The translations under genes and the position numbers were made by a program. A stretch of DNA of 64,000 nucleotides, taken from assembly GCF_035581365.1 (NCBI RefSeq), contig NZ_CP141590.1, positions 2,352,001-2,416,000 of the forward strand, written 5' to 3'. The notes under the pieces are model-generated. The model made no database searches. It had not been told where the DNA came from and saw only the letters and a program-made list of their open reading frames with translations. Positions within the stretch are counted from its first letter, which is position 1; each line of letters starts with the position of its first letter. The stretch comes from Tsuneonella sp. CC-YZS046 (GTDB taxonomy: Bacteria; Pseudomonadota; Alphaproteobacteria; Sphingomonadales; Sphingomonadaceae). Shown one piece after another: positions 4,652 through 20,288 of this stretch.

Positions 4652-5658
4652 GCGCAGCGCTGCACCAGCTCATGCCGGTCGAGGAATGCGCTGAAGAAGA
4701 CGCATTGCCGGTCGGCAATGTCTATCTCGAGGCCTATCTCGCTCCGTTCCGCCGCTGGCTGGAACGCGACACGGTTACCGAAATCATCGTCAACCGGCCC
4801 GGCGAGCTATGGATCGAGGACGCCGCGACGCCGGGGATGCAGCGAATCGCGTTGCCCGAGATCGACGACCAGCTGATCAAACGGCTGGCCGAGCAGGTCG
4901 CCCGGGTCAGCCATCAGGGGATCAACCGCGAGCATCCGTTGCTCGGCGCGACACTGCCGGGCGGCGCGCGCGTGCAATTCTGCGGCCCGCCGGCAACGCG
5001 CGGGCCATGGGTGATGGCGATCCGCCGCCACCGCCGGCTGGACCTGCCGCTCGACGCCTATGACAGCGGCCCTCTGACCCGGCCTGAGCAAGCGCCGATG
5101 CCGGATCGCGAAGCCTCGCCCATCGCATGGCTGCGCGCGGCGATCGCGGCGCGCAAGACCATCCTCGTGTCGGGCGGCACGTCCACCGGCAAGACCACTT
5201 TCCTCAATGCCATGCTGGGCGAGATCCCGCGCGACGAACGGGTCGTGCTGGTGGAGGACACGCCCGAACTGCGCTTGCCCGGCGACAATGGCGTCGGCCT
5301 GGTGGCGGTGAAGGGCGAGCTTGGCGAGGCCAAGGTCACCGCCAATGAATTGCTGCAGGCCGCCCTGCGCCTGAGGCCGGACCGGATCGTGCTGGGCGAG
5401 TTGCGCGGCGCCGAATCCGTCAGCTTCCTGCGGGCGATCAACACCGGCCATCCCGGCTCCTTCTCCACCATCCATGCCAATTCGCTGCGCGGCGCGCTCG
5501 AACAGCTTGCGCTGATGGTGATGCAGACCGGGATCGGGCTGACCCGCAGCGATACGATTGCCTATGCGGCTTCGGTGATCGACGTGGTGGTGCAATTGGG
5601 GCGGCAGAACGGCAAGCGCGGAATTACCGCCATCGCGGAAAGCCGTGAATTGCTATAG
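4648..5658 (+). CDS. virB11: Type IV secretion traffic ATPase VirB11
   Basis: Hexameric AAA-like ATPase at the cytoplasmic base of the secretion channel. Walker A GGTSTGKT lies at about residues 176-183, the VEDTPELRLP Asp box follows, then LRLRPDRIVLGELRGAE (Walker B) and the His box GHPGSFSTIHANS. The N-terminal domain has the usual TEIIVNRPGELW signature. I start it at GTG 4648, which overlaps the virB10 stop by GTGA and gives 336 residues; ATG 4672 is the alternative. It is the last virB gene seen, and no virD4 coupling protein follows, so what the system exports cannot be told from here. Confidence 0.93.
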   Translation: MSAALHQLMPVEECAEEDALPVGNVYLEAYLAPFRRWLERDTVTEIIVNRPGELWIEDAATPGMQRIALPEIDDQLIKRLAEQVARVSHQGINREHPLLGATLPGGARVQFCGPPATRGPWVMAIRRHRRLDLPLDAYDSGPLTRPEQAPMPDREASPIAWLRAAIAARKTILVSGGTSTGKTTFLNAMLGEIPRDERVVLVEDTPELRLPGDNGVGLVAVKGELGEAKVTANELLQAALRLRPDRIVLGELRGAESVSFLRAINTGHPGSFSTIHANSLRGALEQLALMVMQTGIGLTRSDTIAYAASVIDVVVQLGRQNGKRGITAIAESRELL

Positions 5659-6498: not shown

Positions 6499-7212
6499 AT
6501 GCCGGGGCTCATGGAGTCCGCATCCGCCATTCTTGCGTCTTCGGAACGCCGCGTGGAAGCGGTTTCCCGGAACGTGTCGAATGCGTCGACTGCGGGATAC
6601 AAGAAACAGGTCGCCTTCGCGCAGACCCTTGACCGGGCGACGGAATCCTTTCCCCCGCAGGTGGCCGAAACCCGCTTCCTGACCGATTTCAGCCAGGGCC
6701 GTCTTCGTCATACCGGCAAGCCTCTCGATCTCGCGATCCATGGTCCGGCGCTGCTTCAATTGCGCGCGGGGGACGATCTGATCTACTCGCGCGGCGGCGC
6801 CTTTACGCTGGGCGATGGCGGCTCCGTGATCGACGCAGCGGGCCGCATCCTGCAGCAGGCCGGTGGCGGCGATCTGGTGCTCGACGGTCAGGACGTGGAG
6901 ATCCTGGGCGACGGCACCGTCCTGCAGGCAGGCGTGCCGGTCGCGGCCATCGGGCTTTACGATGCAGGCCAGGGCTCCGGTATCGCGGCCATCGGCGGAT
7001 CGGTGTTCCGCGCCAGCCCGAGCGGGCTGGCCGAAGCGAATGGCAGCGTTCTGCGCCAGGGCCAGCTCGAAAGCTCCAATGTGGTGATGAGCGACGAGAT
7101 GGTCGTGATGATGGCCGCCGTGCGCCAGTCGGAAGGCGGCGCGCGGCTGGCGCAGACCTATGACCAGTTGATCGGCCAGGCGATTACCACCTTCAGCAGG
7201 AGCGGGCGATGA
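6499..7212 (+). CDS. flgF: Flagellar basal-body rod protein FlgF
   Basis: Proximal rod subunit of the flagellar axial structure, exported by the flagellar type III apparatus. 237 residues with the N-terminal rod signature (SRNVSNASTAGYKK, about residues 24-37), a middle insert domain with LDLAIHGPALLQL, and the C-terminal FLG_bbr-type helix (GQLESSNVVMSDEMVVMM and the coiled end). A GATCGGGGGG ribosome site precedes ATG 6499. First gene of a plus-strand unit running to about 21.99 kb, so the promoter should lie in 6296-6498, though I could not recognise a sigma-54 or sigma-28 box there. Confidence 0.9.
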   Translation: MPGLMESASAILASSERRVEAVSRNVSNASTAGYKKQVAFAQTLDRATESFPPQVAETRFLTDFSQGRLRHTGKPLDLAIHGPALLQLRAGDDLIYSRGGAFTLGDGGSVIDAAGRILQQAGGGDLVLDGQDVEILGDGTVLQAGVPVAAIGLYDAGQGSGIAAIGGSVFRASPSGLAEANGSVLRQGQLESSNVVMSDEMVVMMAAVRQSEGGARLAQTYDQLIGQAITTFSRSGR

Positions 7213-7982
7213 ACGGGGCCTTTGAAGTCGGGGCGGTGGCGCTCCGGGCGGAACAGCTCGCGCTGGAGATGATCGCCAACAACATCGCCAATGTGAACAG
7301 CCCGGCCTTCAAGCGCTCCGAGCCGCGCTTCTCGGAAATCCTGGCGCGGCAACCGCAGGCGGACGGGATCGGCGGCGCATTGGCCCCCAGCGGACTGCCG
7401 GAAGGCGGCGGAGTGCGGATCGTCCCCCAGGCCATGCTGTTCGCGCAAGGGGAGATCAGGCCGACCGGCAACCCTATGGATCTGGCGATCGAAGGGCAGG
7501 GGCTGATTGAATTGATGGGGCCATCCGGGCAGGACCTGCTCTGGCGGGGCGGACCGTTGCGGGTGAACGAGGACGGATTGCTGGCCACGGCGGATGGAAT
7601 CCCGCTGCGCGCCGGGATCGTGATACCGCTCGATGCGCAATCGCTTTCGATTTCGCCCGCTGGCATCGTGTCCGCGCTCACTTCCAGCGACGAAAGCGTG
7701 GAGGTGGGCCAGATCCGGCTGGTGCGCGTCGAGCATGAAGACGCGCTGGAACGGCTGGACAACGGCTTGCTGCGCCCGTTTGAGGATACGCGGCTGATCG
7801 ACAGCGCGGCGGGAGAGGACGGAACCGGATGGTTCCGTCAGGGCAGCCTCGAAGGCTCCAATGTCGAATTGTCGGAAGAGATGGTGAAAATGCTCATCAT
7901 CCAGCGGGCTTTCGCCGCTAACGCGCAAGCGATCCAGGCCGCCGACCAGCTCGCCGCCATCACCAACAATCTCAAGAAGTGA
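7209..7982 (+). CDS. flgG: Flagellar basal-body rod protein FlgG
   Basis: Distal rod subunit. 257 residues, close to the usual 260. N-terminal motif ANNIANVNSPAFKRSEP (about residues 21-37), central LDLAIEGQGLIEL-like strand (MDLAIEGQGLIEL) and C-terminal QGSLEGSNVELSEEMVKML followed by QRAFAANAQAIQAADQL, the classic end of rod and hook proteins. Start overlaps the flgF stop by ATGA. FlgF and FlgG are told apart by order and by the closer fit of this one to the FlgG termini. Confidence 0.92.
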   Translation: MNGAFEVGAVALRAEQLALEMIANNIANVNSPAFKRSEPRFSEILARQPQADGIGGALAPSGLPEGGGVRIVPQAMLFAQGEIRPTGNPMDLAIEGQGLIELMGPSGQDLLWRGGPLRVNEDGLLATADGIPLRAGIVIPLDAQSLSISPAGIVSALTSSDESVEVGQIRLVRVEHEDALERLDNGLLRPFEDTRLIDSAAGEDGTGWFRQGSLEGSNVELSEEMVKMLIIQRAFAANAQAIQAADQLAAITNNLKK

Positions 7983-8677
7983 CGATGCGGCCGGGCCTGT
8001 CCGCCATGCTGCTTGCCCTGGCATGCGCCGGATTGCCCGGCGATGCGGCAGCGGCGGAGCGTGTCGTGCTGCTGGCGCGGGAGATCACCGTCGCGGATCT
8101 TGCCCTGCTCGATGACGGGCAGCGGACGAGGCTTGGCCCATTGGCGATAGCGGTCATTCCGGCCGGACGCAGCCATCTCGAACTCGATAGCGCCACCCGC
8201 GCCAAGCTGCTGCGGCGGCGCGTGCCGGGGCAGGCATTGCGCCTTCGCCATGGCGGAAAGGTACGCTTCGAGTTTTCGGAAGCGTCGCAGCCCGGGCACG
8301 GCGCCCGCCAATGCCTCACGCTGCGGCACGATCTCGATGCCGGCGCCTATCTCCAGCCGGAAACCGTGGCGCCAGCCCTGTGCCGCGCTCATGCGGCCCG
8401 GCTGCCGCTTCTCTTCGATCGCCGCGTGAACGCGACGCGCCTCTCCGCGCCGCTGGCCGCCGGCACTTATCTCGGGCCGCTGGCTGTCCGGGGCGGGCCG
8501 GTCATCGGTGCGGGAACGGAACTTCGCCATGTCGCACGCCAGGGGCCGGTCACCATCGAACGCCGGGTAAACGCTCTCCAGCCCTCCCGCATGGGGCAGG
8601 CCGTATTCGTCCGCACCCATGATGGCGCCATCTTCGCCTCGCATCTCGCGGCGCCCGTCGAGGAGGCAAGCGAATGA
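7979..8677 (+). CDS. flgA: Flagellar P-ring chaperone FlgA
   Basis: Periplasmic chaperone needed for assembly of the FlgI P-ring. 232 residues with an N-terminal Sec signal peptide (AMLLALACAGLPGDAAAAE) and the SAF/ChapFlgA C-terminal domain: LTLRHDLDAGAYLQPETV, the LAAGTYLGPLAVR repeat and a final GQAVFVRT. The start shown is GTG overlapping the flgG stop (GTGA); ATG 7985 with AAGAAG upstream is equally likely. It sits directly before the flgH and flgI ring genes it would serve. Confidence 0.83.
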   Translation: MTMRPGLSAMLLALACAGLPGDAAAAERVVLLAREITVADLALLDDGQRTRLGPLAIAVIPAGRSHLELDSATRAKLLRRRVPGQALRLRHGGKVRFEFSEASQPGHGARQCLTLRHDLDAGAYLQPETVAPALCRAHAARLPLLFDRRVNATRLSAPLAAGTYLGPLAVRGGPVIGAGTELRHVARQGPVTIERRVNALQPSRMGQAVFVRTHDGAIFASHLAAPVEEASE

Positions 8678-9252
8678 AGGCGCGGCTGGTCTTGGCTTCG
8701 GTCCTTCTTGCAACCCTGTCGGCGGCGCAGGCACAGGCGGATCAGCTCTACAGCGGCGGGGGATGGCCGGCCGTCGCGGCGGACGATCGGGCCCGGGCGG
8801 TCGGCGATACGGTGACGGTTCTGATCCACGAAGCGGCCAGCGCTTCCAGCAAGCTGCAGAAGAATTCGTCCCGCAAGACGGAATTCGGCGGCGGGGTGAG
8901 CGGCGGATCGGTCGATGAATCGGTCTCGCTCGATTTCGGCGGAAACTACGGCGGCAAGGGCGAGCTGGTGCGCAGCGAGCAATTCGTCGCGCGCATGTCG
9001 GCCGAAGTGGTCGGGCTGGCTCCCAATGGCGATTTCCTGATCGAAGGCCGCCAGCGGATGCTGATAAACGGGGAAACCACCTCGATCGGCGTGCGGGGGC
9101 GAATCCGCCCGCAGGATATTTCGGCCAGCAACGCGATCCTGTCCTCCCGCATCGCCGATGCGCAGATCGATTATGACGGCAAGGGCTTCGTCAGCCGCAG
9201 CGCCAAGCCCGGCATCATCAATCGCATCCTCAGCTTCCTGGGGATCGGCTGA
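8674..9252 (+). CDS. flgH: Flagellar L-ring protein FlgH, apparently not a lipoprotein
   Basis: Outer-membrane ring subunit of the flagellar bushing. 192 residues with family motifs: LYSGGGWPAVAADDRARAVGD near the mature N-terminus, the VTVLIHEAASASSKL strand and the C-terminal RGRIRPQDISASNAILSSRIADAQIDY region. FlgH is normally a lipoprotein, but here the signal sequence (ARLVLASVLLATLSAAQAQA) has no lipobox cysteine and the protein has no Cys in this region, so it is probably cleaved as an ordinary secreted protein. Overlaps flgA by ATGA and flgI by one base. Confidence 0.9.
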   Translation: MKARLVLASVLLATLSAAQAQADQLYSGGGWPAVAADDRARAVGDTVTVLIHEAASASSKLQKNSSRKTEFGGGVSGGSVDESVSLDFGGNYGGKGELVRSEQFVARMSAEVVGLAPNGDFLIEGRQRMLINGETTSIGVRGRIRPQDISASNAILSSRIADAQIDYDGKGFVSRSAKPGIINRILSFLGIG

Positions 9253-10385
9253 TGCCCGCGCCCGCCCGTCTCCTGCTGCGCGGCCTCGCGGTGCTGATGG
9301 CCAGCGCGCTTCTGGCGGGCACGCCCGCCGCCGCGCAATCCGTGATGCTCAAGGGGCTGGGGCGGTTCGACGGCTGGCGCGACAATGCGCTCATCGGTTA
9401 CGGCATCGTCACCGGGCTGGCCGGCTCGGGCGACACCCGCCGCAACGAAGTGACACGGCAGGCGCTGCGCAACGTGCTGTCCCGGCTGGGCAGCACCGTT
9501 GCCGACGATCAGATCAACAGCCGCAATGTGGCCGTGGTCATCGTCACCGCCACCTTGCCCGCATCGGCCAATCCGGGCGACCGGATCGACGCGATCGTGT
9601 CCTCGATCGGCGATGCCCGCTCCCTCGCGGGCGGAACCCTGCTGATGACCCCGCTGCTCGGCCCCGATCAGCGCCCCTACGCGCTGGCGCAGGGATCGCT
9701 GACCGTGGGCGGATATGATTTCGAGGCCAATCTCAACCGGCAGCAGCGCAACTATCCGACCAGCGCGGTGCTGCCTGGCGGCGCGACGGTGGAAAGCGCG
9801 GTCGATGCCGCGATCCTGAAGAGCGACGGGCAGGTTTCGTTCCTGCTGACGGAACCGAGCTTCACCACCGCCCAGCGCGTGGCGGAGGCCATCAACCGCG
9901 CGCAGGGCCATGGCATCGCGGAAGTGAAGAACGCGGATGAAGTCGCGATCCGCTTCACCCGCCCGCCCGCGCAACTGGCGGCTTTCCTTTCGGATATAGA
10001 GAATCTTTCGGTGGAGCCGGGCCGTTCACCTCGGATCGTCATCAACGAACGGACCGGCACCGTGGTTGCGGGTGCCGATGTCAGGATCTCGAGCGTGGTC
10101 GTCTCGCAGGGTGATCTCAAGGTGACGATCACCAGCGAGAATTATGCATCGCAGCCCAGCTTCATCGGCGGCTTCGCCAGCGATGTGTCGAGCCTGTTGG
10201 TCACCAACACCAAGCTGGAGGTCGAGCAGGGCGCGAACAATACGGTGATGTCCTTTCCCAACACGACGGTGGGAACGCTGGTGCAAGGCCTTGCGCGGTC
10301 CCGCGTCGATACGCGCCGCATGATCGGCATCCTGCAGGCGATCAAGGCGGCGGGCGCGCTTCACGCCGATATTCTGGTGCAATGA
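9252..10385 (+). CDS. flgI: Flagellar P-ring protein FlgI
   Basis: Periplasmic ring subunit around the rod. 377 residues with a Sec signal peptide ending near PAAAQS, then the conserved block GRFDGWRDNALIGYGIVTGL, GSGDTRRNEVTRQALRNVL and the C-terminal NTTVGTLVQGL...MIGILQAIKAAGALHADILVQ. Full length and intact. It follows flgH with a one-base TGATG overlap and precedes flgB. Confidence 0.96.
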   Translation: MPAPARLLLRGLAVLMASALLAGTPAAAQSVMLKGLGRFDGWRDNALIGYGIVTGLAGSGDTRRNEVTRQALRNVLSRLGSTVADDQINSRNVAVVIVTATLPASANPGDRIDAIVSSIGDARSLAGGTLLMTPLLGPDQRPYALAQGSLTVGGYDFEANLNRQQRNYPTSAVLPGGATVESAVDAAILKSDGQVSFLLTEPSFTTAQRVAEAINRAQGHGIAEVKNADEVAIRFTRPPAQLAAFLSDIENLSVEPGRSPRIVINERTGTVVAGADVRISSVVVSQGDLKVTITSENYASQPSFIGGFASDVSSLLVTNTKLEVEQGANNTVMSFPNTTVGTLVQGLARSRVDTRRMIGILQAIKAAGALHADILVQ

Positions 10386-10396
10386 GGAGACCGGGG

Positions 10397-10741
10397 ATGG
10401 ATGAGCTTTCCGCAATTCTGCTGACCAGGGCGCTGGATGGCCTTGCCATGCGCGCATCCGCTATTTCGCAGAATATCGCCAATGCGAATTCGCCTTCCTA
10501 CCTGCCGTTCAAGGTGTCCTTCGAAGAGCAGCTGCGCGAGACGGCGGCGCAGGGCGCCGAAGCCGCGCGCCGTTTCAAGCCCGAGTTCACGCGCCTGCCG
10601 ATGGATCGATCCAATCGGGAAGTCCGCCTCGATCTCGAAATGGCCAGCGCCTCTCATACCGCCCTGCGCTATGCCGCGCTGATCGAGGTGCTCGGCCGCC
10701 AGATGCAGATCGCGCGGACGGCCGTGCGGGGAGGCCAGTGA
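10397..10741 (+). CDS. flgB: Flagellar basal-body rod protein FlgB
   Basis: Most proximal rod subunit. 114 residues; the N-terminal motif AISQNIANANSPSYLPFKVSF matches FlgB/FlgC, and the C-terminal half has the RSNREVRLDLEM and ALRYAALIEVLGRQMQIARTA helices of FlgB. Start taken at ATG 10397, which has AGGAG seven bases upstream, rather than ATG 10382, which would overlap flgI. Coupled to flgC. Confidence 0.87.
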   Translation: MDELSAILLTRALDGLAMRASAISQNIANANSPSYLPFKVSFEEQLRETAAQGAEAARRFKPEFTRLPMDRSNREVRLDLEMASASHTALRYAALIEVLGRQMQIARTAVRGGQ

Positions 10742-11175
10742 TGGAAGCCCTCGAAATCAGCCGCAGCGGCCTCGATGTGGAATGGCGACGGCTGGAGATC
10801 ATCGCCAGCAATCTCGCCAATATGCAGACCACGCGCACCGGCGACGGCGGCAGCTACATCCCGCTGCGCCTCGTTTCCGGCCCGGTCGAGAGCTTCCGCC
10901 GCATCCTTGCGCAGGAACAGGCCAGCGCGCCCGCTCATCCCAAGGGCGTCCGAGTTTACGGCGTCGAGACGCAGGATGCCGCCGTTCGCCAGGTTTACGA
11001 GCCGGGGCATCCCCATGCCGACCCGCAGGGCTTCGTCACCTATCCCGCCATCAGCCACGCGGAGGAAATGAGCCTGATGATCAAGACCACCCGCGCCTAT
11101 GAAGCCAATCTGGTCGCGATGGCCGCCGCGCAGCAGATCTATTCCAGCGCCCTGCAGCTGGGGCGGCAGTCATGA
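10741..11175 (+). CDS. flgC: Flagellar basal-body rod protein FlgC
   Basis: Rod subunit paired with FlgB. 144 residues with the family N-terminus (ALEISRSGLDVEWRRLEIIASNLAN) and C-terminus (GHPHADPQGFVTYPAIS and the final EEMSLMIKTTRAYEANLVAM helix). ATG 10741 with GGGGAGG upstream is preferred; a GTG one codon earlier also exists. The stop overlaps the fliE start. Confidence 0.92.
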   Translation: MEALEISRSGLDVEWRRLEIIASNLANMQTTRTGDGGSYIPLRLVSGPVESFRRILAQEQASAPAHPKGVRVYGVETQDAAVRQVYEPGHPHADPQGFVTYPAISHAEEMSLMIKTTRAYEANLVAMAAAQQIYSSALQLGRQS

Positions 11176-11495
11176 TCGAAATCGCGCCGATCGGTTCGGT
11201 CACGCTGGAAAGCGCGGCGCCTCTCCTCAACCGGCTGGGGATGGAGGCGCTGCCCGCCGCCAGCGCGCAGACAGGGGCGAGCTTCGCGTCCATCCTGCGC
11301 AGCGGGCTGGAGAGCGTGAACGACAAGATCGCCACGGCCGACGGGCTCGTCCGGCAATTCGCGCTGGATGACAGCATACCGGTGCATCAGGTCACTTTCG
11401 CGCTCGAGGAAGCGCGGCTCTCCGTGGAATTCGCGATGCAGGTCCGCCAGCGCCTGACCGAGACTTACCGCGAATTGATGAACATGCAGCTGTGA
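11172..11495 (+). CDS. fliE: Flagellar hook-basal body protein FliE
   Basis: Adaptor joining the MS-ring to the rod. 107 residues; the C-terminal half fits FliE well (ASFASILRSGLESVNDKI, then VHQVTFALEEARLSVEFAMQ and the terminal QRLTETYRELMNMQL). Start overlaps the flgC stop by ATGA. fliF follows after 34 bases, the usual fliE-fliF order. Confidence 0.92.
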   Translation: MIEIAPIGSVTLESAAPLLNRLGMEALPAASAQTGASFASILRSGLESVNDKIATADGLVRQFALDDSIPVHQVTFALEEARLSVEFAMQVRQRLTETYRELMNMQL

Positions 11496-11529: not shown

Positions 11530-12765
11530 ATGAAGCGCAGGCAGCTCATCCTTTTCGGAACCGTGATGGCTGGGGTCTTCACCGTGCTATGCGTCCTCTA
11601 TTTTGCCTTCCTGCGGCCGGGCTATGCGGTGCTGTACGAGGATCTGCGCGAAGCGGATGTCGCTGCCATCGTCGGGGAGCTGGAAAAGCAAGGCATCGCC
11701 TATCGCCTCGCCGATCAGGGCCGCAGCGTGCTTGTCCCGGAAGACGAAGCCAGCCACGCGCGCGTCATCGTCGCCGGTTCCGGCATCACCATGGGCGGCG
11801 TGGTCGGCTTCGAGCTGTTCAACGAAAGCGACATGGGGCTGACAGAGTTCGCGCAGAAGGTGAACTATCAGCGGGCATTGCAGGGCGAACTTGCCCGCAC
11901 GATCATGCTGATGGACGGCATCAGCTCCGCCCGAGTCCATCTTTCCCTCCCGGAACGGGCGCTTTTCCGGGCGGTGCAGCACGGCCCCAAGGCGGCCGTC
12001 ACCGTCCAGACCATGGGGAAGCGCGCGCTCGACCCGGACCAGATCGCCGGAATCCAGCGCCTCGTCGCTTCTACCGTAACCGGCCTTTCCAGCGCCGATG
12101 TCGCGATCCTGGACGATCAGGGCGATCTGGTGAGCCCGGTCGTGCCGCAACCGTCCCAGGGCGGGGCCAGCGGGGAGCGAGGCGCGCTCGAAGAATATTT
12201 CCGGGCACGGGCCACCGCCGCCGCGGAGAGGATCGTGCCCGGCGCGCCATTTGAAATCCGGGTCTCGGCGCTCGATCTTGATGCTGTGGGACCGGATGCG
12301 CCCACGCCGCTGGATCGCTCCGGCCCGCCCGCAGGCGAGGCACGCAATTTCAAGCTGCGCATCGCGTTCCGCAGCGAAGGCGACCTCAATCCGGAGAATG
12401 AAGAGCGCCTTCGCCAGGCGATCACGCAGGCAGTCGGGCTCGATCCCGCGCGCGGCGACATTCTCCGCTTCGAAACCGGGCCGCTCGGGCTTCCGGAGAA
12501 CTCCGGGCTGGGCCGGCATGGCGACACGCGATCCGCCTTCGACGATCGCAGCGCGGCGCTTCCGCCCGCCCCAGCACAATCCGCCGGGGACTGGGCCAGC
12601 TGGCCTTCCTATCCCTGGCTGCTGGGCGGGCTGGCGATATTGGCGGCGATTGCTGTCGCCCGGTTTCGTCAGCGCAGCCGCCTGACCGGGGAAGAGCAGC
12701 AGAGCTTCGCGGACGTGCTTTCCGCCACTCTTTACTCCCGGGAGCTTGACCGCGATGAGCGCTAG
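11530..12765 (+). CDS. fliF: Compact flagellar MS-ring protein FliF
   Basis: Inner-membrane ring on which rod, export gate and rotor are built. 411 residues, well below the usual 530-570. First transmembrane helix at about residues 7-28, then ring-building domains with GYAVLYEDLREADVAAIV, VGFELFNESDMGLTEFAQKVNYQRALQGELARTI and ARVHLSLPER. The segment between the second ring domain and the second membrane helix (about 359-377) is only about 140 residues, too short for the beta-collar insertion of canonical FliF. A 34-residue charged tail ends the protein. It overlaps the next gene by 11 bases. Confidence 0.9.
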   Translation: MKRRQLILFGTVMAGVFTVLCVLYFAFLRPGYAVLYEDLREADVAAIVGELEKQGIAYRLADQGRSVLVPEDEASHARVIVAGSGITMGGVVGFELFNESDMGLTEFAQKVNYQRALQGELARTIMLMDGISSARVHLSLPERALFRAVQHGPKAAVTVQTMGKRALDPDQIAGIQRLVASTVTGLSSADVAILDDQGDLVSPVVPQPSQGGASGERGALEEYFRARATAAAERIVPGAPFEIRVSALDLDAVGPDAPTPLDRSGPPAGEARNFKLRIAFRSEGDLNPENEERLRQAITQAVGLDPARGDILRFETGPLGLPENSGLGRHGDTRSAFDDRSAALPPAPAQSAGDWASWPSYPWLLGGLAILAAIAVARFRQRSRLTGEEQQSFADVLSATLYSRELDRDER

Positions 12766-13150
12766 CGCGGAACCGTTGGATGCGCTGCTGGAGCGATGGC
12801 GCCACCTCTCGCGGGGGGACCGCAACGCCATCCTGCGCCACATGCCGGCCGAACGGCGGATCGACCTCCAGCAGGCTCTCGCCGAGCGATCCGCAGCGAG
12901 CGCATTTTCCGGCCAGCATGGCAATCAGGCCACGCAAGCCGCCTATTCACCCTGGCTCGCCCAGACCCTCGAAGCCATCGACAGCCCCGAAGATGCCGAG
13001 GCCCGGAATATCCTCCTTCCCCGGCCCGCAGCCCGCGAAGCGTTGAGCCGCGCTCGTGCCAGAGCGCAGGAACTCACCGTCAGCGAGCGGCGCCCGTCCC
13101 TGCTCGATCTTGCGAGATCGCTGCTATTCGAAGGGAGCGGCCGGAAGTGA
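12755..13150 (+). CDS. Small helical protein in the fliG position
   Basis: Function unproven. The 131-residue product lies exactly where fliG is found in most flagellar loci, between fliF and fliH, but is about 40 percent of FliG length. The first part (LLERWRHLSRGDRNAILRHM followed by PAERRIDLQQAL) has the alternating pattern of short helices seen in FliG middle and MgtE N-terminal repeats; the rest is Arg/Ala/Leu-rich. Start ATG 12755 has CGGGAG upstream and overlaps fliF; the stop overlaps the fliH start by GTGA. It could be a reduced FliG, a FliF-FliH adaptor or an unrelated assembly factor. Confidence 0.75.
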   Translation: MSASAEPLDALLERWRHLSRGDRNAILRHMPAERRIDLQQALAERSAASAFSGQHGNQATQAAYSPWLAQTLEAIDSPEDAEARNILLPRPAAREALSRARARAQELTVSERRPSLLDLARSLLFEGSGRK

Positions 13151-13905
13151 ACGCTCTCCTGAAAGCGCATGATCGGGATGCATTGGCCGATGTGCAGTCC
13201 TTCCGGGCGAGCCGTCCGCATGGCAGCCATGCGAGCCAATCGCCTATCAGCGCTGGCGAAGAGAGCGACAGGCAGTCGGAAACGCATGGGCATCGTGAAA
13301 CGGGAGCGGCCCGGGCTGCAGCGGCTCCGGCAACCGGCGATCCCGGGATCGAGCGGCTCGAAACCCAACTCGCGGCGCTTCAGGAAGAATTGAAGCAGGC
13401 CAAGGCGAAAGGCGAAGCCCAGGCGGCCGAGGCACTCCAACGCGGCAAGCTCCAGGGCGGGCAGGAAGCAGAAAAGAACGCGCAAGCGGCGCTGGAGAAA
13501 CTCTCCGCCGCATTGGAAAGTGCGCAGGCGGAATTTTCCGAAGGGTTCGAGCGATTCGAAGGGCTTGCGCTCCAGATCGCGCAGACCGCGCTCGCCCGGG
13601 TCCTGGGGGACAGCAGCCAATTTGCGGAAATGGTGTTCGAAGCGGTGCGGCACCAGTTGGCCGGGATCGACCGCGCCCTCGTCGCGGGCCTGCGCGTCTC
13701 GCCCTGCGACTTTACGGACGGGGATGCCGTGGCGGCTTGCGCATCCCGATTCGACAGGCTGGAGGTGACGGTCGATCCCGATCTGGCCGCCGGGGAATGC
13801 GTGATCGACCTGCGCATGGGTGCAATCGACGTCTCGATCGGCAAGCAATGGTCGCGCCTGTCCGCCTTGCTGGAGCAACTGGCCATGGAAGGCGCCCCAT
13901 CATGA
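13147..13905 (+). CDS. fliH: Flagellar export ATPase regulator FliH
   Basis: Peripheral stalk/negative regulator of the FliI ATPase. 252 residues starting at GTG 13147 (GTGA overlap). The N-terminal third is polar and low complexity, the middle (about residues 75-135) is a Glu/Ala/Lys-rich coiled coil (RLETQLAALQEELKQAKAKG, EAQAAEALQRGKLQGGQEAE) and the C-terminal domain has the FliH/YscL pattern, ending in VTVDPDLAAGECVIDLRMG and a short LSALLEQL helix. Followed by fliI with ATGA overlap. Confidence 0.85.
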   Translation: MNALLKAHDRDALADVQSFRASRPHGSHASQSPISAGEESDRQSETHGHRETGAARAAAAPATGDPGIERLETQLAALQEELKQAKAKGEAQAAEALQRGKLQGGQEAEKNAQAALEKLSAALESAQAEFSEGFERFEGLALQIAQTALARVLGDSSQFAEMVFEAVRHQLAGIDRALVAGLRVSPCDFTDGDAVAACASRFDRLEVTVDPDLAAGECVIDLRMGAIDVSIGKQWSRLSALLEQLAMEGAPS

Positions 13906-15227
13906 AGGCCCATCCCCTGGTGCAGCGCCTGGAACAGGCGGAGCTGACGCGATGGTGCGGAGCGGTCACCCGGATTTCGGCCGATTGGCTGGAGGCGGAT
14001 GGTCCGATCGCCATGATCGGCGATTATTGCGAGATCGAGCGGGCTGGCGGCGGGGCACCGCTGGTCGCGGAAGTGGTTGCGGTCCAGCCCGGCGCGCTCC
14101 GCCTCGCGCCCTTCGGCCCGATCCACGACCTGCTGCTGGGGGCCACGGTCACGCGTTGCCGCGACCTCGACCGGATCGCAGTGGGCGGGGGCTTCGCGGG
14201 GCGCGCGGTGGACGCGCTTGCCCGGCCGATCGACGATGGGCCGGCGATCCTGCCGGATCATCGCGGGCCAAGGGCGGGCGCCCTGCTTCCGGCACTGCAG
14301 CGCACCGTCGCCCGGGAGCGTGTCGAAACCGGGGTGCGGGCCATCGACGGCCTCCTGCCTCTGGGCAAGGGCCAGCGGATCGGGATCTTCGCCGCCAGCG
14401 GCGTCGGCAAGACCAGCCTGATAGATCAGCTTGCGCGCCAGATCGCCTGCGACCGGATGATCCTGTGCCTGGTGGGAGAACGCGGGCGCGAGGTGGAGAA
14501 GCTCTGGCGGACGCATCTGCAGGATGCAGCGCGCGCGCGTTTCACCCTGGTGGCCGCGACGGCGGACGAGAGCGCCAGCCTGCGCGTCCGCGCGATCGAT
14601 CAGGCGCTGGGCATGGCCGAATATTGGCGGGATCGGGGCGAGCATGTCGTGCTGATCGTGGATTCGATCACCCGGGTCGCGCTGGCCCTGCGCGAGCTTG
14701 GCCTGGCTTCCGGCGAACCGCCCGCCGTGCGCGCCTTCACCCCCAATGTCTTTTCCGCCCTGCCCCGGATCGTCGAGAGGTGCGGCGCCGCGCGCGATGG
14801 CGGGGCGATCACCGCGATCATGACGGTGCTGAGCGAGACGGACGATGTGGACGATCCCCTCGTCGAGCTGATGAAGTCCGTGCTCGACGGGCATATCGTC
14901 CTCTCCCGGACGCTGGCCGAGAGGGGGCATTTCCCGGCAATCGACATCGCGCGCAGCATCAGCCGCCTGGCCGGCGATCTCTTCTCGCCGCCGGAAGCGC
15001 AACTTGCGCGCAAGGCCCATGCGGCTCTCGCGCGCTTCGAGGAAGCCCGCCCGATGATCGAAAGCGGGCTGTATCGCAAAGGCTCCAACCCGGAAGTGGA
15101 TCAGGCCATCGCCTGGCAGCAGGATCTTGCCATCTTCCTGCAGCAGGAAGCGGACCGCCCCTGCAGCCGGAACGAAGGCTTCGCGATGCTCTCGCGGATC
15201 TGCGGAGGCGACGGCCATGCGCAATGA
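13902..15227 (+). CDS. fliI: Flagellum-specific ATP synthase FliI
   Basis: Cytoplasmic hexameric ATPase of flagellar type III export. 441 residues. Walker A ASGVGKTS at residues 165-172, LVGERGREVEKLW after it, Walker B VVLIVDSITRVA with Asp254, and the late YRKGSNPEVDQAI segment typical of FliI. All catalytic motifs are intact. The start overlaps fliH by ATGA; fliJ begins inside its last codons. Confidence 0.96.
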   Translation: MKAHPLVQRLEQAELTRWCGAVTRISADWLEADGPIAMIGDYCEIERAGGGAPLVAEVVAVQPGALRLAPFGPIHDLLLGATVTRCRDLDRIAVGGGFAGRAVDALARPIDDGPAILPDHRGPRAGALLPALQRTVARERVETGVRAIDGLLPLGKGQRIGIFAASGVGKTSLIDQLARQIACDRMILCLVGERGREVEKLWRTHLQDAARARFTLVAATADESASLRVRAIDQALGMAEYWRDRGEHVVLIVDSITRVALALRELGLASGEPPAVRAFTPNVFSALPRIVERCGAARDGGAITAIMTVLSETDDVDDPLVELMKSVLDGHIVLSRTLAERGHFPAIDIARSISRLAGDLFSPPEAQLARKAHAALARFEEARPMIESGLYRKGSNPEVDQAIAWQQDLAIFLQQEADRPCSRNEGFAMLSRICGGDGHAQ

Positions 15228-15675
15228 CCGCAACCGATGCAGGAGCTTGGGCCAGCTCACTATGCTGCAAAGCTTGCGGGTGGCGCAGGGCGAGCTGTCG
15301 CTGGCCGATGCCACGGCGGCGCGGGCGGAGGCCGAGGAGGCCGAGCGGGAAGCGGAGCGGCTGCTCGATGCCGCCCGGCAGGACTATCACCGGATGCTTT
15401 CCTCCGGTTCCTTCGCCGCGGAAGGCTTCCGGCTGGCTGGCGCGATGGTGAACCTGCTGGAGCAGGAAGCCGGGACGAGGCGCGAGCGAACGGCACAGGC
15501 CAGGGAAGCGGAAGCCGCAAGGGAATTGCGCTGGCAGCGCCAGCGCCATCGGCAGGACCAGCTCGGCGCGCTCCACAAGGCCGCGCGCCGCAAGCTTGCC
15601 CGCAAGGAGGAGGAAAAGGCCATAGCCGAAGCGGGCCAGCTGCTCCTTCACCGGGGCGGGAGGAGCCGGGCATGA
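15217..15675 (+). CDS. fliJ: Flagellar export chaperone FliJ (by position and coiled coil)
   Basis: Likely FliJ, the small coiled-coil protein that sits in the FliI ring and works with the export gate. The 152 residues are almost wholly charged helix (ARAEAEEAEREAERLLDAAR, ARELRWQRQRHRQDQLGAL), as expected for FliJ, but coiled-coil composition alone is weak evidence. Start ATG 15217 has GGAGG at good spacing and overlaps the end of fliI; fliK overlaps its stop by ATGA. Confidence 0.7.
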   Translation: MRNDRNRCRSLGQLTMLQSLRVAQGELSLADATAARAEAEEAEREAERLLDAARQDYHRMLSSGSFAAEGFRLAGAMVNLLEQEAGTRRERTAQAREAEAARELRWQRQRHRQDQLGALHKAARRKLARKEEEKAIAEAGQLLLHRGGRSRA

Positions 15676-16523
15676 GGATCGCGCATGAGCCGGGCGGGCC
15701 ACCCGCCAGCACCGGCCGCAACCTGCCGCACGGCAGCCCGGCGGGGATGGAGCCTGCCCCACTGCCGTTCGCGGCGTTGATGGCCGCCTATTCCGCGAAC
15801 CCCGGCAATCCGGCGGAACACGAAACGGCAGCGCTGGCTGCCACGATCATACCGGGCACGATCATACCGAACGCGGTCGCAGCCCCTGCCCCGGCCCAGC
15901 CTGAAATCGCCGCCATCTGGCCCGCCATTGGCGAAGGCGCCCATCCCTTCTGCGCATCCGCCTTGCTGGTAAGCACCGCATTCCCGCCGCAGACGGCAGG
16001 CGCCGGGGCGGAGCCTCGCATGGTACAGCCGGCGGCAGGCTCAACCCCCGGCCTGACCTTGCCGCAATCCGATCCGGCCATGACACTCGCAGCCCCCTTC
16101 GAGGCAAGCCGATCCGCATCCCTGGGCAGCTCCGCGCCAGCATTGCCGCAAGGGAGCCACCTGCCCGGCCCCGCACTCCTGCCCAGAGGGGCGTCGCCTG
16201 CCGCAATGACCTCAACCGCTGCGGCATCCGCGCCTCCCCGCCCCGGCCTGTCCGCGCAAACACAGCCCGATAGCCGCCCGGCAGGCGAGCGCTCGTCCAG
16301 TGTCCGCAGCCGGTCCGCGCTGGCCGATCCATCGCGCCCGGCAGCCACGGCAACGGCCCTGGCGCAATTCGTGCCGCTGGAAGGGGGATTGCGGCTGGTG
16401 CTGCGCCTGCCGCGCCTGCCGGACGACATGCGCGCCGAGCTGGAGGCGAGACTGCACCAGTTGCTGGCCGCCTTCGGCCATTCCCGGCATGAATTGCTGA
16501 TCCGCCAGAGCGGGCGAGGATAG
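15672..16523 (+). CDS. fliK: Probable hook-length control protein FliK
   Basis: Probable molecular ruler that stops hook export. 283 residues, short for FliK. Residues 1-210 are Pro/Ala/Ser-rich and low complexity, as in the FliK ruler region; the C-terminal part (FVPLEGGLRLVLRLPRLPDD, then a helix and HELLIRQSGRG) resembles the FliK C-terminal domain but ends early. The call rests on composition and on lying between fliJ and flgD. No signal peptide. Confidence 0.65.
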   Translation: MRIAHEPGGPPASTGRNLPHGSPAGMEPAPLPFAALMAAYSANPGNPAEHETAALAATIIPGTIIPNAVAAPAPAQPEIAAIWPAIGEGAHPFCASALLVSTAFPPQTAGAGAEPRMVQPAAGSTPGLTLPQSDPAMTLAAPFEASRSASLGSSAPALPQGSHLPGPALLPRGASPAAMTSTAAASAPPRPGLSAQTQPDSRPAGERSSSVRSRSALADPSRPAATATALAQFVPLEGGLRLVLRLPRLPDDMRAELEARLHQLLAAFGHSRHELLIRQSGRG

Positions 16524-16530: not shown

Positions 16531-16980
16531 ATGGCATCCGCCCCGATCGACGGCCTCACCGGCGTCCAGCAGAACGGCTCCGCCAATGCGTCAGGCACGC
16601 AGGCCGCGACCGATGCGTTCGGCCTCAGCTTCGAATCCCTGCTGAAGATCGTGCTGACCCAGCTGACCTATCAGGACCCGCTGAAGCCGATGGACAATTT
16701 CGAATTCGTCTCGCAGCTCGCCCAGTTCTCGCAGATCCAGCAGACGCAGGAAATGTCGGAAAGCCTGCGCACCCTGGTCGCGGCGCAATCCACCTCGCAG
16801 GCGGCCGGGCTGCTCGGCAAGATCGTCGACATTCCGGCCGGGGCCGCCACGCTGAGCGGGGAAGTGACCGCCGTGGCCTTCGTCGATGGCGCCCCGCGGC
16901 TGACCATCCGCACCGCCGGCGATCAAACCATCAGCAATATCGCACTCAGCTCCATTTCTCAGATCCGGGAGGCAAACTGA
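16531..16980 (+). CDS. flgD: Flagellar hook-cap protein FlgD (short form)
   Basis: Scaffold for hook polymerisation. The N-terminal signature is clear: ESLLKIVLTQLTYQDPLKPM followed by DNFEFVSQLAQFSQIQQTQE (about residues 30-70). At 149 residues it is far shorter than the usual 220-240; after the linker only one small beta region remains (GKIVDIPAGAATLSG, AVAFVDGAPRLTI), so most of the FnIII/Tudor-like hook-cap domain is missing. Seven bases separate it from fliK, and flgE follows directly. Confidence 0.88.
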   Translation: MASAPIDGLTGVQQNGSANASGTQAATDAFGLSFESLLKIVLTQLTYQDPLKPMDNFEFVSQLAQFSQIQQTQEMSESLRTLVAAQSTSQAAGLLGKIVDIPAGAATLSGEVTAVAFVDGAPRLTIRTAGDQTISNIALSSISQIREAN

Positions 16981-16981: not shown

Positions 16982-18157
16982 ATGTTCGGTTCCATCTATA
17001 TCGGCCTGAGCGGCCTCAATGCCTATTCGCAAGGGCTGAAGACGGTCAGCAACAATGTCAGCAATCTCAACAGCGCGGGCTTCAAGGCTGCCGACATCTC
17101 CTTCTCCGACATCTATGGCGGGGGCAGCGCAGGCGGGCTCAACTATGGCGCGGGCTACCGCGCCCAGGGCCACGGGGTCAGCTTCGACGATGTCACGATA
17201 AATTTCTCGCAGGGGGAGTTGCGCCAGACCGGCCGCGACCTCGACCTCGCGATAGATGGCGGCGGCTTCCTCACGCTGATCGACGGCGACCGGACCTATT
17301 ACGCCCGCACCGGCAGCTTCGTGATCGACGAGGATGGCCATGTCGTGCTCGCGGGCACGGACCTCAGGCTGGCGGTGCTCGATTCCGGCGGCCGTCCGGT
17401 CGGCCTGAATATCGACACGGCGCGCACCAGCCCACCAGAGCAGACCACGAAGATCGTCTTTTCCGACAACCTTTCCTCCACCGCCACGACCCACACGATT
17501 TCCGATCTCAAGCTCTTCGACGAAGGGGGCGGGGAGCATCTCTGGACCATCGCACTGACCCGCGAGGAGACGGTGCCGAATCAGTGGACCGTGCAGGTGA
17601 CCGACGGGGATGGCGACGAGATCGGCTCTCAGACCCTGAACTTCGTGGGCGGCCTGCCGGATATCGCCAATACGACGCTGACTTTCGAGGATAGCGACAG
17701 CGGCCTTTCCGTCGCATTCGACTTTTCGGGCATCACCTCCTTTTCCTCCGGCACCGTGTCCACACTGCGGGCGTCGCAGGTCGATGGACATGGCACCGGC
17801 ACCATCACCACCCTGACGGTCAATGAGCAGGGCCAGTTCGAGATCGCCTACAGCAATGAGGAAACGCGCGAGCTGGGCGCCATCGCCCTGGCCGATTTCC
17901 GCGATCCGCAGAAGCTGCAGCAGCGCAGCAACGGGCTGTTCGCGCATAGCGGGTTCGGCCAGGTCCAGTATCTCTCCGCGCAGGACAGCAGGGTGGGCAG
18001 CATCTTGTCTGGGCGGCTCGAAGCGTCCAACGTCGATCTGGGGGCGCAATTCGGCGACCTGATCCTGATCCAGCGCGGCTTTCAGGCATCCTCGCAAATC
18101 ATCAGCGTCAGCAATGACATGATCCAGCAACTGTTCGGCATCCGGGGGCAGGGATGA
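16982..18157 (+). CDS. flgE: Flagellar hook protein FlgE
   Basis: Hook subunit. 391 residues with the axial-protein N-terminus (YIGLSGLNAYSQGLKTVSNN, VSNLNSAGFKAADI), the conserved QGELRQTGRDLDLAIDGGGF strand block, variable D1/D2 hook domains and the C-terminal helix (LEASNVDLGAQFGDLILIQRG, FQASSQIISVSNDMIQQL). Intact and full length for the alphaproteobacterial range. Located between flgD and fliM. Confidence 0.94.
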   Translation: MFGSIYIGLSGLNAYSQGLKTVSNNVSNLNSAGFKAADISFSDIYGGGSAGGLNYGAGYRAQGHGVSFDDVTINFSQGELRQTGRDLDLAIDGGGFLTLIDGDRTYYARTGSFVIDEDGHVVLAGTDLRLAVLDSGGRPVGLNIDTARTSPPEQTTKIVFSDNLSSTATTHTISDLKLFDEGGGEHLWTIALTREETVPNQWTVQVTDGDGDEIGSQTLNFVGGLPDIANTTLTFEDSDSGLSVAFDFSGITSFSSGTVSTLRASQVDGHGTGTITTLTVNEQGQFEIAYSNEETRELGAIALADFRDPQKLQQRSNGLFAHSGFGQVQYLSAQDSRVGSILSGRLEASNVDLGAQFGDLILIQRGFQASSQIISVSNDMIQQLFGIRGQG

Positions 18158-18924
18158 CGGGCACGCCACGAAGCTGGCTTCCCGAATGCGCCCTGACCTC
18201 GCCCATCGCGGTCAAGCCGATGGCCGACTGGCTGGATGAGTGGTCGCGCGCATGGCTGGTATCGGGCCGTCTCACGCCCGCACCCGCCTGGAAGGAAGCG
18301 CGCCGCGACACTTGGAGCGATACCGGTGGGACCACGCAATGGCAGGACGACAGCGGCTTTCGCGTCTCATCGCGGGCGGAAACACAGCACCTGCTGGCCG
18401 GCGCCATGCTGGGGCACGCGATCACCGACAGGGACATCAGGACCCCCGGCGACAGGATGGTGATCGGCGATCTCGTGAAAGCCGCGATCAAGGATCTTTC
18501 CGACAAGCTGGATGCGAAGCTGCAGGGCGCGCTGCCGACGCCGGCCGGCGAAGCGGAATATTGCCTGCCGATATTCCTCGATGCCGGGCCGGAAATATTG
18601 GCGATCACGGCGCGCCGCTCGATCGTGACAGGATTGGCCCGGCGCTATGCCGGCCCGCCCCGCAGCAGGCCGGAACCGGGGGAAAGATCGCAGGCCCTCG
18701 CCCGGCAGGAGATCGGACTCTCGGCCATCATCGGCCGCACCCGGCTCGGCCTGCGGGATCTCGAACGGCTCGGGATAGGCGATGTCATCACGCTCGGCAC
18801 GCCGACCGACCGACCCTTGGACGTCAGCATGGGCGGGATTTCCTGCAGCTCGGCTGCCGCGTCCCTCGCCCTGCAGGGCGAACGCTTCGGCCTCCGGATC
18901 GAAAGGCATGTGAACCAATGGTAG
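18154..18924 (+). CDS. fliM: FliM-like rotor/export protein without the CheY-binding motif
   Basis: Probable FliM-type C-ring protein. 256 residues, against about 330 for FliM. The C-terminal 70 residues form a SpoA domain (RTRLGLRDLERLGIGDVITL, SMGGISCSSAAASLALQGER), which would dimerise with FliN. The N-terminus lacks the EIDALL-type peptide that binds phosphorylated CheY, and the middle domain matches FliM poorly. It could equally be called a SctQ-like protein. Overlaps flgE by four bases and fliN by seven. Confidence 0.7.
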   Translation: MTGTPRSWLPECALTSPIAVKPMADWLDEWSRAWLVSGRLTPAPAWKEARRDTWSDTGGTTQWQDDSGFRVSSRAETQHLLAGAMLGHAITDRDIRTPGDRMVIGDLVKAAIKDLSDKLDAKLQGALPTPAGEAEYCLPIFLDAGPEILAITARRSIVTGLARRYAGPPRSRPEPGERSQALARQEIGLSAIIGRTRLGLRDLERLGIGDVITLGTPTDRPLDVSMGGISCSSAAASLALQGERFGLRIERHVNQW

Positions 18925-19190
18925 ATGACGATATTCTTCCGGCTTCCGCGCCGCAGGAAAGACCGGCCCGGCTGATCGACCATGTCGAGGTCGAGATCGA
19001 AGTGCTGCTCGGGGAAGCCCGGCTGACGGTGGCGGGTCTGAACGCGCTTGCCGCCGGGGACGTGCTTCCAATCGACCGCAAGCTCAGCGAGGCGGCCGAT
19101 ATACGAGTGAACGGGCAAGTGATCGCCCGGGGCGAGATCGTCACGCTGGATGACAAATTCGCCATTCGCGTCACGGAAATCGGCGAATAG
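18918..19190 (+). CDS. fliN: Flagellar motor switch/export protein FliN
   Basis: Small SpoA-domain protein that forms the lower C-ring and docks FliH for export. 90 residues: a short polar N-terminus, then IDHVEVEIEVLLGEARLTVA, LNALAAGDVLPIDRKLSEAA and DIRVNGQVIARGEIVTLDDK, the full FliN domain. Start ATG 18918 lies inside the end of fliM. Its position with fliO and fliP downstream is the standard fliMNOP order. Confidence 0.92.
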   Translation: MVDDDILPASAPQERPARLIDHVEVEIEVLLGEARLTVAGLNALAAGDVLPIDRKLSEAADIRVNGQVIARGEIVTLDDKFAIRVTEIGE

Positions 19191-19197
19191 GCGCGCC

Positions 19198-19566
19198 ATG
19201 CAGGCATTGCGATATATTCCGGGCCTGCCCGCCCTGCTCATCGCCGCGCCCGCGCTGGCCGCCGGGCTGGGCAAGGGCACCGCGCCCGCCATACCCTGGG
19301 CGCGGATTGCGCTCGCCTTCGTGTTCTGCATTGCGCTGGCTGCGGGCGCGATCCTGCTGATGCGCAAATATCGCCTGCATGACGGCGGCGGCTTCTCCTT
19401 TCCGCGCCGCCCGGCCGGCCAGCGCGCCATCGAGATCGTGGAAACCCGGCGAGTGAGCCAGCACGGCGATGCCTGCCTGCTGCGCTGCCATGGGCAGGAC
19501 TATCTGTTCGTCATCACACCCCACAAAGTCGTGCTGCTCGACAAGCTCGGGGCGCAGGGCGAATGA
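19198..19566 (+). CDS. fliO: Flagellar biosynthetic protein FliO
   Basis: Small membrane protein that stabilises FliP during assembly of the export gate. 122 residues with a signal-like hydrophobic start, one transmembrane helix at about residues 36-55 (IALAFVFCIALAAGAILLM) and a cytoplasmic domain with the FliO pattern IEIVETRRVSQHGDACLLRC and LFVITPHKVVLL. Start ATG 19198; the stop overlaps fliP by ATGA. Confidence 0.85.
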   Translation: MQALRYIPGLPALLIAAPALAAGLGKGTAPAIPWARIALAFVFCIALAAGAILLMRKYRLHDGGGFSFPRRPAGQRAIEIVETRRVSQHGDACLLRCHGQDYLFVITPHKVVLLDKLGAQGE

Positions 19567-20288
19567 GGCCATCGCTGCGCAGGCTGGCATGCCTTGTGGC
19601 CTTTGCCGCGACCATGGCCGCCGCGCCCGCCGCCCATGCAGCCAACGCCGCCGTGGTGGGCGGCACCGGGCAGGCAGTGCAGATCGCCGTCGTCCTCGCG
19701 GTGCTGGCGGTGATCCCCGCGATCCTGATCAGCACCACCAGCTTCGTGCGGATCGTGATCGTCCTCGCCATGGTTCGCCACGCCTTCGGTATGCCGCAAA
19801 CCCCGCCCAATGCGGTGCTGACCAGCCTTGCCCTGTTCATGACGGCATTCGTGATGGGGCCGACCCTGTCGCAGCTCAACCAGGATGCCTTGCAGCCGCT
19901 GCTCAGCGGGAAGGCCGAGCTGGGCGAAGTGATGGATAAGGGAGCGGCCCCGCTCAAGAGCTTCATGCTCAAGCATACGCGCGACCGCGATATCGAGATG
20001 ATCTACGAAATAGCGCGGACACCCCTGCCGGAGCGGACCGAGGACATTGACCTGTTCAAGCTGACTCCGGCCTTCATGCTCAACGAGCTGCGGGTCTCCT
20101 TCACCATCGGCTTCGTCATCCTCCTGCCGTTCCTGCTGATCGATCTGGTCGTGGCCAGCATACTTCTCGCGCTGGGCATGATGATGGTGCCGCCAGCCAC
20201 CATTTCCCTGCCGATCAAGGTGCTGATGTTCGTACTGATCGACGGCTGGAGCCTGGTTCTGGAGGGCTTGCTCGGCAGCTTCGGATGA
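19563..20288 (+). CDS. fliP: Flagellar export-gate protein FliP
   Basis: Core subunit of the FliP5-FliQ4-FliR1 export gate. 241 residues with a cleavable signal sequence (about 1-26), and the family blocks ISTTSFVRIVIVLAMVRHAF, GMPQTPPNAVLTSLALFMTA, PAFMLNELRVSFTIGFVILL and LLIDLVVASILLALGMMMV. Intact. The ORF overlaps fliO and fliA by ATGA on both sides. Confidence 0.97.
   Translation: MRPSLRRLACLVAFAATMAAAPAAHAANAAVVGGTGQAVQIAVVLAVLAVIPAILISTTSFVRIVIVLAMVRHAFGMPQTPPNAVLTSLALFMTAFVMGPTLSQLNQDALQPLLSGKAELGEVMDKGAAPLKSFMLKHTRDRDIEMIYEIARTPLPERTEDIDLFKLTPAFMLNELRVSFTIGFVILLPFLLIDLVVASILLALGMMMVPPATISLPIKVLMFVLIDGWSLVLEGLLGSFG

Follow-up and report, generated by a model that had tools for sequence, protein, structure and literature searches.

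How can a flagellar hook-basal body gene set persist when FliG, the torque protein of the rotor, is missing from it? This question is raised by a second flagellar gene set of Tsuneonella sp. CC-YZS046, located at ~6.5–27.5 kb of the window, i.e., of the whole 64,000-nucleotide stretch analyzed here (positions 2,352,001–2,416,000 of a single-contig 3.35-Mb genome). No fliG was found in this set by family and whole-genome searches, and a small gene, here called X, stands in its place behind fliF. With a probability of roughly 0.6, we propose that the set encodes a non-rotary, filament-less hook-basal body for export, in which X would be a static adaptor between FliF and FliM/FliN, and for which giant Rhs/YD-repeat proteins are the most likely cargo.

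The open reading frame of X spans positions 12755–13150 on the plus strand, starts with ATG, and encodes 131 residues. It overlaps its neighbours on both sides: the end of fliF (12765) at its start, and the GTG start codon of fliH (13147) at its TGA stop codon (13148–13150). The canonical flagellar cluster of the same genome has the order fliE-fliF-fliG-fliH-fliI-fliJ (fliE, fliF, and fliI also by tblastn, fliH and fliJ by position). Therefore, X occupies the slot that fliG holds in the genome's other operon. An X homologue or a small open frame follows fliF in all 26 distinct loci with a readable fliF-fliI stretch. The original prediction of a small helical protein in the fliG slot is borne out. 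Seven loci without a complete fliF-fliI stretch (L045, L050, L052, L054, L056, L060, and L062) stand outside this count. Undibacterium has fliH at another place and fliI next to X, with X still in the slot after fliF. X was read in 23 of the 27 set-bearing genomes, including six of the eight that lack FliG; in the remaining four, the locus is cut or broken. X is a real coding sequence, fast-evolving yet under purifying selection: the mean column identity among X sequences is 36%, and the ratio of nonsynonymous to synonymous substitution rates (dN/dS) was 0.22, 0.15, 0.27, and 0.19 in four pairs (dS 0.55 to 1.74), a fifth pair being saturated.

The whole genome was searched for another fliG, as had been suggested with the original prediction. 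The sole FliG match was a 337-residue protein at G000:C1:262630-263643(-), in the canonical cluster 2.1 Mb from the window set; none was found in the window, which bears out the claim that the set has no fliG. The canonical cluster also holds its own fliF (548 residues), fliM, fliN, fliP, flhA, and flagellin, and motB lies near it. Among the 27 set-bearing genomes, 19 gave one FliG_C match each and eight gave none. Flagellin_N, a model that by reading also picks up FlgL, divided the genomes in the same way, with matches in those 19 and none in those eight. MotB_plug was found in none of the four FliG-less genomes tested and in all five FliG-bearing ones tested. FliD_N was absent from all eight FliG-less genomes and present in three others tested, although this model also misses the Caulobacter control. 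Four of the FliG-less genomes (G133, G233, G069, and G201) are 99%–100% complete, and a fifth (G192) is 92% complete. From the absence in 8 of 27 genomes it follows that the set is maintained there without FliG, filament or, where tested, stator. Comparison of the genomes, at the level of profile matches, thus shows that the set is retained where FliG and flagellin are missing and, in the genomes tested for them, where MotB and FliD are missing too. Of the two options left by the original prediction, rotation with a FliG from elsewhere loses ground, because a fliG does exist here but these eight genomes keep the set with neither a FliG nor a flagellin match; the non-rotary machine is to be preferred.

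We also investigated whether X is a reduced FliG. FliG_C (PF01706), the torque domain, was not detected in X with the threshold set at E ≤ 10 or in the 20 members searched with E ≤ 1, in line with the earlier claim that this domain is missing. The further claim of a FliG-middle/MgtE-like segment did not hold up. MgtE_N (PF03448) scored 16.2 bits on X (E 0.015) vs a cut-off of 25.9, a sub-threshold match seen in 1 of 20 members, and the EHPQ motif of FliG_M occurs in 0 of 26 X sequences. In the profile-profile (HMM-HMM, hidden Markov model) comparison by hhalign, 20 X sequences aligned to 14 FliG with a probability of 1.4%, E 0.037, and a score of 19.5. Column-shuffled FliG equalled this score in 1 of 150 cases, and the helical control TprA scored higher (21.0). 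When FliG was split by domain, FliG_N reached 20.1, a score that none of 150 shuffles equalled in local or global mode but that lies below the 21.0 of TprA; FliG_M reached 12.0. Twenty more real controls stayed at or below 14.6 locally, and orf113, another gene of the set, exceeded FliG_N globally (11.5 vs 9.9). With 26 X sequences, FliG_N was the best of ten comparisons (three FliG pieces and seven controls; local 20.2, global 15.8), yet with a probability of 5.5%, and FliG_M scored 12.6, like the controls. Accordingly for the HMM-HMM check, the middle domain stayed at control level and the N-terminal domain came out best without significance. FliG_N is the domain that binds the FliF tail. 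Its weak likeness to X comes with helices in the same order, helical controls come close, and it can be taken as a hint only, weak and non-significant. A suggestion that the 169-residue X of Undibacterium is FliG_M-like was dropped, as Pfam, NCBIfam, and hhalign did not support it.

Searches beyond FliG gave a similar picture. X has no match to SctK in Pfam or NCBIfam, SctK families being very variable in sequence. Its profile reached a best E of 0.074 against PDB sequences and of 0.017 against PHROGs, the latter for a match of unknown function. The AlphaFold2 model of X is all helical, with a predicted local distance difference test (pLDDT) score of 83 and a predicted template modelling (pTM) score of 0.43. 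Foldseek returned four PDB matches at E ≤ 10 and none at E ≤ 0.001, with FliG (1lkv) fourth at E 9.8; this null result is no sign of a new fold. VIA returned one row at Z 2.1 among five chains.

The presumed partners of X were compared with their canonical counterparts. The sequence-family match of the set FliM is confined to its C-terminus (FliMN_C). The best Foldseek match of its model was the C-ring protein FliM (E 2e-6), and VIA aligned the model with FliY (Z 10.2, root-mean-square deviation, rmsd, 3.9 over 155 residues) and with the FliM middle domain (Z 9.5, rmsd 4.8 over 153 residues). According to the model, the set FliM keeps the CheC-like middle fold next to the FliMN_C domain. The GGxG motif of FliM is the contact to FliG. 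It was found in 1 of 23 set FliM (L063; residues 56–125 scanned) vs 5 of 5 canonical FliM read, and two more set FliM retain GGP alone. Of seven extra loci examined for canonical FliM, L088–L090 had no FliM at threshold and lie outside the 5 of 5. By reading, the tail of the set FliF past the last membrane helix has ~30 residues vs ~80 in canonical FliF, and a recurring amphipathic stretch is seen in it. The altered FliM and the short FliF tail fit a replaced FliG.

The set has the gene content of a flagellar-type export system with rings, rod, and hook, and it includes no torque-protein, stator, or filament gene. The plus-strand order is flgF/G-like, flgA, H, I, B, C, fliE, F, X, fliH, I, J, K, flgD, E, fliM, N, O, P, a FliA-like sigma factor, tprA, and orf113; a tetratricopeptide repeat (TPR) gene, flhA, flhB, fliR, and fliQ follow on the opposite strand. 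The features of the set, in window positions, are:

6499–7212, plus strand: flgF-like rod protein (family match)
7209–7982, plus strand: flgG-like rod protein (family match)
7979–8677, plus strand: flgA
8674–9252, plus strand: flgH, L ring (family match)
9252–10385, plus strand: flgI, P ring (family match)
10382–10741, plus strand: flgB (family match)
10738–11175, plus strand: flgC (family match)
11172–11495, plus strand: fliE (family match)
11530–12765, plus strand: short FliF of 411 residues with a ~30-residue cytoplasmic tail (by reading)
12755–13150, plus strand: X, helical protein of 131 residues in the fliG place
13147–13905, plus strand: fliH-like
13902–15227, plus strand: fliI ATPase (family match)
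15217–15675, plus strand: fliJ (named by position; no family match)
15672–16523, plus strand: fliK (named by position alone; no family search made)
16531–16980, plus strand: flgD (family match)
16982–18157, plus strand: flgE-like hook protein (family match)
18154–18924, plus strand: FliM-like protein with predicted CheC-like middle fold, GGxG lost, and SpoA-type C-terminal domain
18918–19190, plus strand: fliN
19150–19566, plus strand: fliO
19563–20288, plus strand: fliP (family match)
20285–21028, plus strand: FliA/WhiG-like sigma factor
21052–21627, plus strand: tprA, TPR protein, marker of the set
21646–21987, plus strand: orf113, small protein conserved in the set
21991–23106, minus strand: TPR protein
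23184–25211, minus strand: flhA (family match)
25204–26292, minus strand: flhB (family match; SctU model slightly higher)
26296–27066, minus strand: fliR (family match)
27076–27345, minus strand: fliQ (family match)

FliE, FliF, FlgC, FlgI, FliP, and FliQ scored above the NCBIfam cut-offs, and FlgB, FlgD, FlgE, FlgF/G, FlgH, FliI, FlhA, and FliR gave clear matches but under the equivalog cut-offs. Rod, hook, and P- and L-ring genes are thereby all represented (FlgB, C, D, E, F/G, H, I, and FliE matched). The export gate and ATPase are closer to flagellar than to injectisome models (FlhA 706 vs 549 bits, FliP 249 vs 188, FliQ 91 vs 50, FliR 126 vs 79, and FliI 439 vs 416), with the exception of FlhB (window 25204–26292), which, unlike the other export genes of the set, scored 250 bits vs 272 for SctU.

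Relatives of the set were collected by two routes. A search of 298 genomes of the family with X gave 10 matches, of which nine (the window's included) lie in a syntenic set; the match in G015 had no flagellar synteny and was dropped. Two TprA peptide patterns run against 84,980 species genomes gave 24 loci, 21 with set genes (three of these already found) and three without (L065–L067, dropped). The loci come from Croceicoccus, Novosphingobium, Sphingopyxis, Altererythrobacter, Erythrobacter, Parerythrobacter, Sphingomonas, and Sphingorhabdus, and from metagenome-assembled genomes (MAGs) labelled Sphingomonadales, Alphaproteobacteria, Telmatospirillum, and Acidobacteria. The spread is patchy: TprA was found at E ≤ 1e-15 in 7 of 396 genomes of the order, and at class level (385 genomes, E ≤ 1e-10) in the window's genome and in one weak TPR match (G734) that was dropped as no other set gene accompanies it. 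On plasmids of Burkholderiales, the genes are the same, their order is almost unchanged, and a small protein takes the X slot. There is no annotated fliG on the plasmids of Undibacterium YM2, where flgI is annotated in two pieces, and of Burkholderia ubonensis, which is typed as conjugative; the Variovorax plasmid is unannotated and was read by tblastn and translation. Set-bearing genomes measure 2.2–7.1 Mb, and many also carry a motile flagellum set.

Two loci deserve separate mention. In G096 (L017:17284-19236), the flhA beside the set is just 37% identical to that of the window set, and flagellin, motB, and fliG lie within about 15–25 kb of it. At the MAG locus L050, the set is reduced to flgF, the sigma factor, TprA, orf113, and TPR pieces, possibly through an assembly fault.

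The candidate cargo was recognized beside the set. The giants found there have about 3,300 to 12,900 residues and consist of a common N-terminus followed by Rhs/YD repeats. This N-terminus covers ~115 residues in 11 aligned giants from alpha- and betaproteobacteria, most of which start with MVAI or MTAI; two further giants (L058 and L063) share it by eye. A giant adjoins the set in 11 of 16 well-covered neighbourhoods, namely G133, G098, G247, G096 (two copies), G302, G201, G503, G307, and the plasmids of Variovorax, B. ubonensis, and Undibacterium YM2. The other 17 of the 33 set loci have short or one-sided flanks and are outside the 16; two of them show a giant (the FliG-less G304, and G311). 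The giants occur at no fewer than three different positions around the set, each time adjacent. RHS_repeat was found in 4 of 4 N-termini tested and DUF6531 above its cut-off in 3 of 4. Of six C-termini, one carries a GH-E (HNH/Endo VII) nuclease domain (G503, L193:10282-11481; E 2.2e-26), one gave sub-threshold matches, and four gave no match. RHS repeats, DUF6531, and a variable toxin C-terminus mark polymorphic Rhs toxins, and the giants are broadly built like such toxins (PMC3482391), with the toxin end shown in one case alone.

Some further arrangements of these genes were seen. Locus L111 of G096 (G096:C1:1497500-1517499) holds two consecutive giant YD-repeat genes with similar N-termini. 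In G201, the first giant adjoins fliQ, and a second YD-rich frame of 2505 residues with one end open (L190:3-7517; G201:C1:327500-347499) lies ~12 kb upstream of the set. In several relatives, the giant gene is on the flgF side, where the window has putative conjugative type IV secretion genes (41–5658, upstream of the set; VirB4, VirB6, VirB9, VirB10, and VirB11 by reading of frames, no family search made). On the Undibacterium KW1 plasmid (L094:1-20591), the neighbour of a giant of the same family is a TprA relative, and a search of this plasmid for FliF at E ≤ 1e-30 gave no match; TprA could be a companion of the giant and not of the basal body.

Taken as a mechanism, the set would encode a flagellar-type export machine that was inherited apart from the motile flagellum and gave up rotation. 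It would consist of the MS ring, rod, P and L rings, hook, export gate, and ATPase, with its own FliM/FliN and its own sigma factor. X would replace FliG as a small static adaptor, a role suggested by where its gene lies, by the loss of GGxG from FliM, and by the conservation of the FliF tail. The N-terminal helices of X probably grip the short FliF tail, and the rest of X probably keeps the altered FliM/FliN ring positioned to serve as an export platform. The giants with their one common N-terminus would leave through the hook; their association with the set is observed, and we infer the export. To the wider view, we give even odds: these sets could form a distinct class of non-rotary secretion machines of flagellar origin, full hook-basal bodies in alpha- and betaproteobacteria and on plasmids, with FliG replaced by a mini-adaptor, and dedicated to giant Rhs toxins with one N-terminal signal.

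Several observations weigh against this proposal. No family in Pfam, NCBIfam, or PHROGs claims X, and because no significant relationship links X to FliG, SctK, or any other family, the role given to it rests on position. MotB was tested in 9 of the 27 genomes and FliD in 11, FlgK was not searched for, and there is no completeness figure for the FliG-less G303 (a 2.2-Mb MAG), G304, and G309. As to the cargo, no giant is near the set in 5 of the 16 well-covered neighbourhoods (G233, G069, G310, G000, and the 28-kb contig of G535). Among the eight FliG-less genomes, a giant lies beside the set in three (G133, G201, and G304), is absent from well-covered flanks in two (G233 and G069), and could not be judged in three. 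In the window's genome (G000), of whose chromosome about half was scanned, one giant YD-repeat relative was found (L209:2-7681; G000:C1:223001-230680; 5' end beyond the stretch), 59% identical to the Croceicoccus giant over 1516 residues. It adjoins the canonical flagellar cluster, 2.1 Mb from the set, which argues against a close link between the giant and the set in this genome. The giants could accordingly be near the set for another reason, e.g., a shared mobile island, and use another exit route, the set exporting something else or just its own hook. Rhs proteins are usually linked to secretion routes other than flagellar sets, and the five neighbourhoods without a giant, the window's own included, together with the KW1 plasmid, point the same way. 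We consider this somewhat unlikely in view of the one N-terminus common to 11 giants from two proteobacterial classes and of the adjacency to the set wherever around it they are placed.

For X itself, a role as an export helper, such as a chaperone or a FliH/FliI partner, would leave FliF to bind FliM/FliN directly or via another protein. In its small size, helical make-up, and rapid evolution X resembles many chaperones, it has no detectable FliG or SctK relation, and in Undibacterium it adjoins fliI after the move of fliH. However, X keeps the slot after fliF in every readable locus, Undibacterium included, FliM has lost the FliG-binding GGxG yet kept its fold, and FliG_N was weakly the best of the ten profile comparisons; we hold the helper to be unlikely. 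That the window set rotates with FliG and MotAB borrowed from the canonical cluster 2.1 Mb away is very unlikely: fliG is there and motB is near it, but the set is kept in eight genomes with no FliG match, the four of these tested have no MotB, 22 of 23 set FliM are without GGxG, and the set FliF is without the long canonical tail (by reading). A decaying second flagellum, with X as a functionless fliG remnant, would account for a short, poorly conserved X. Purifying selection on X (dN/dS 0.15–0.27) and syntenic sets in several genera and on Burkholderiales plasmids, with the divided flgI of Undibacterium YM2 as one exception, make decay extremely improbable.

How a rotary flagellum becomes a secretion device is an old question, argued so far from injectisomes and Buchnera. 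The present hook-basal body set is retained in the absence of torque protein and filament, a defined protein occupies the FliG slot, and there is a candidate cargo; the step from motor to exporter becomes directly testable. If the proposal is true, giant Rhs proteins have an extra secretion route.

Compared with canonical FliG, X shares the slot between fliF and fliH, the helical make-up, and, as proposed, the partners FliF and FliM; it differs in length (131 vs 337 residues in this genome) and in having no FliG_C, no EHPQ, and no significant profile match. In injectisomes, a static SctK-SctQ sorting platform lies between ring and ATPase. Non-rotary export over such a static platform is what we propose for the window set, whereas its export genes score as flagellar (FlhB excepted), rod, hook, and P- and L-ring genes are present, and no SctK family matches X; our searches did not extend to secretin and needle genes. 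The myxococcal non-flagellar type III secretion system (T3SS) likewise does without FliG and MotAB, but according to the part of PMC3459982 used here it is also without FlgBCDEK, FliE, and FlgH, whereas the window set has FlgB, C, D, E, H, and FliE (FlgK was outside our searches). The conversion of flagella into export devices is a topic of the same source. In PMC12403147, FliO is named in brief as occurring in "nonflagellar T3SS operons" from Sphingomonadales, Burkholderiales, and further orders; two orders and the presence of FliO agree with the window set, and FliG, X, cargo, and gene content are left undescribed in that section. A T3SS on a large plasmid of Sphingomonas sp. SKA58 is said, in the passage of PMC2702493 concerned, to have features of T3SSs and of the flagellar motor and is not analysed further there. 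Both may be sets of the window type. The sections of PMC12199754 and PMC9380563 considered here do not mention the set, and searches of the open-licence PubMed Central (PMC) literature yielded no paper that reports a replaced FliG or that describes Rhs giants alongside a flagellar set. Sets of this type seem to have been glimpsed in print, no description having been found in that literature. A reduced flagellum is also known from Buchnera aphidicola, which, according to the part of PMC8109811 drawn on here, keeps basal body, hook, and export genes and has lost flagellin and MotAB. This endosymbiont retains flgK, and FliG was found in its isolated basal-body complexes. Buchnera thus keeps FliG, whereas in the window set FliG is replaced, and this in genomes of 2.2–7.1 Mb.
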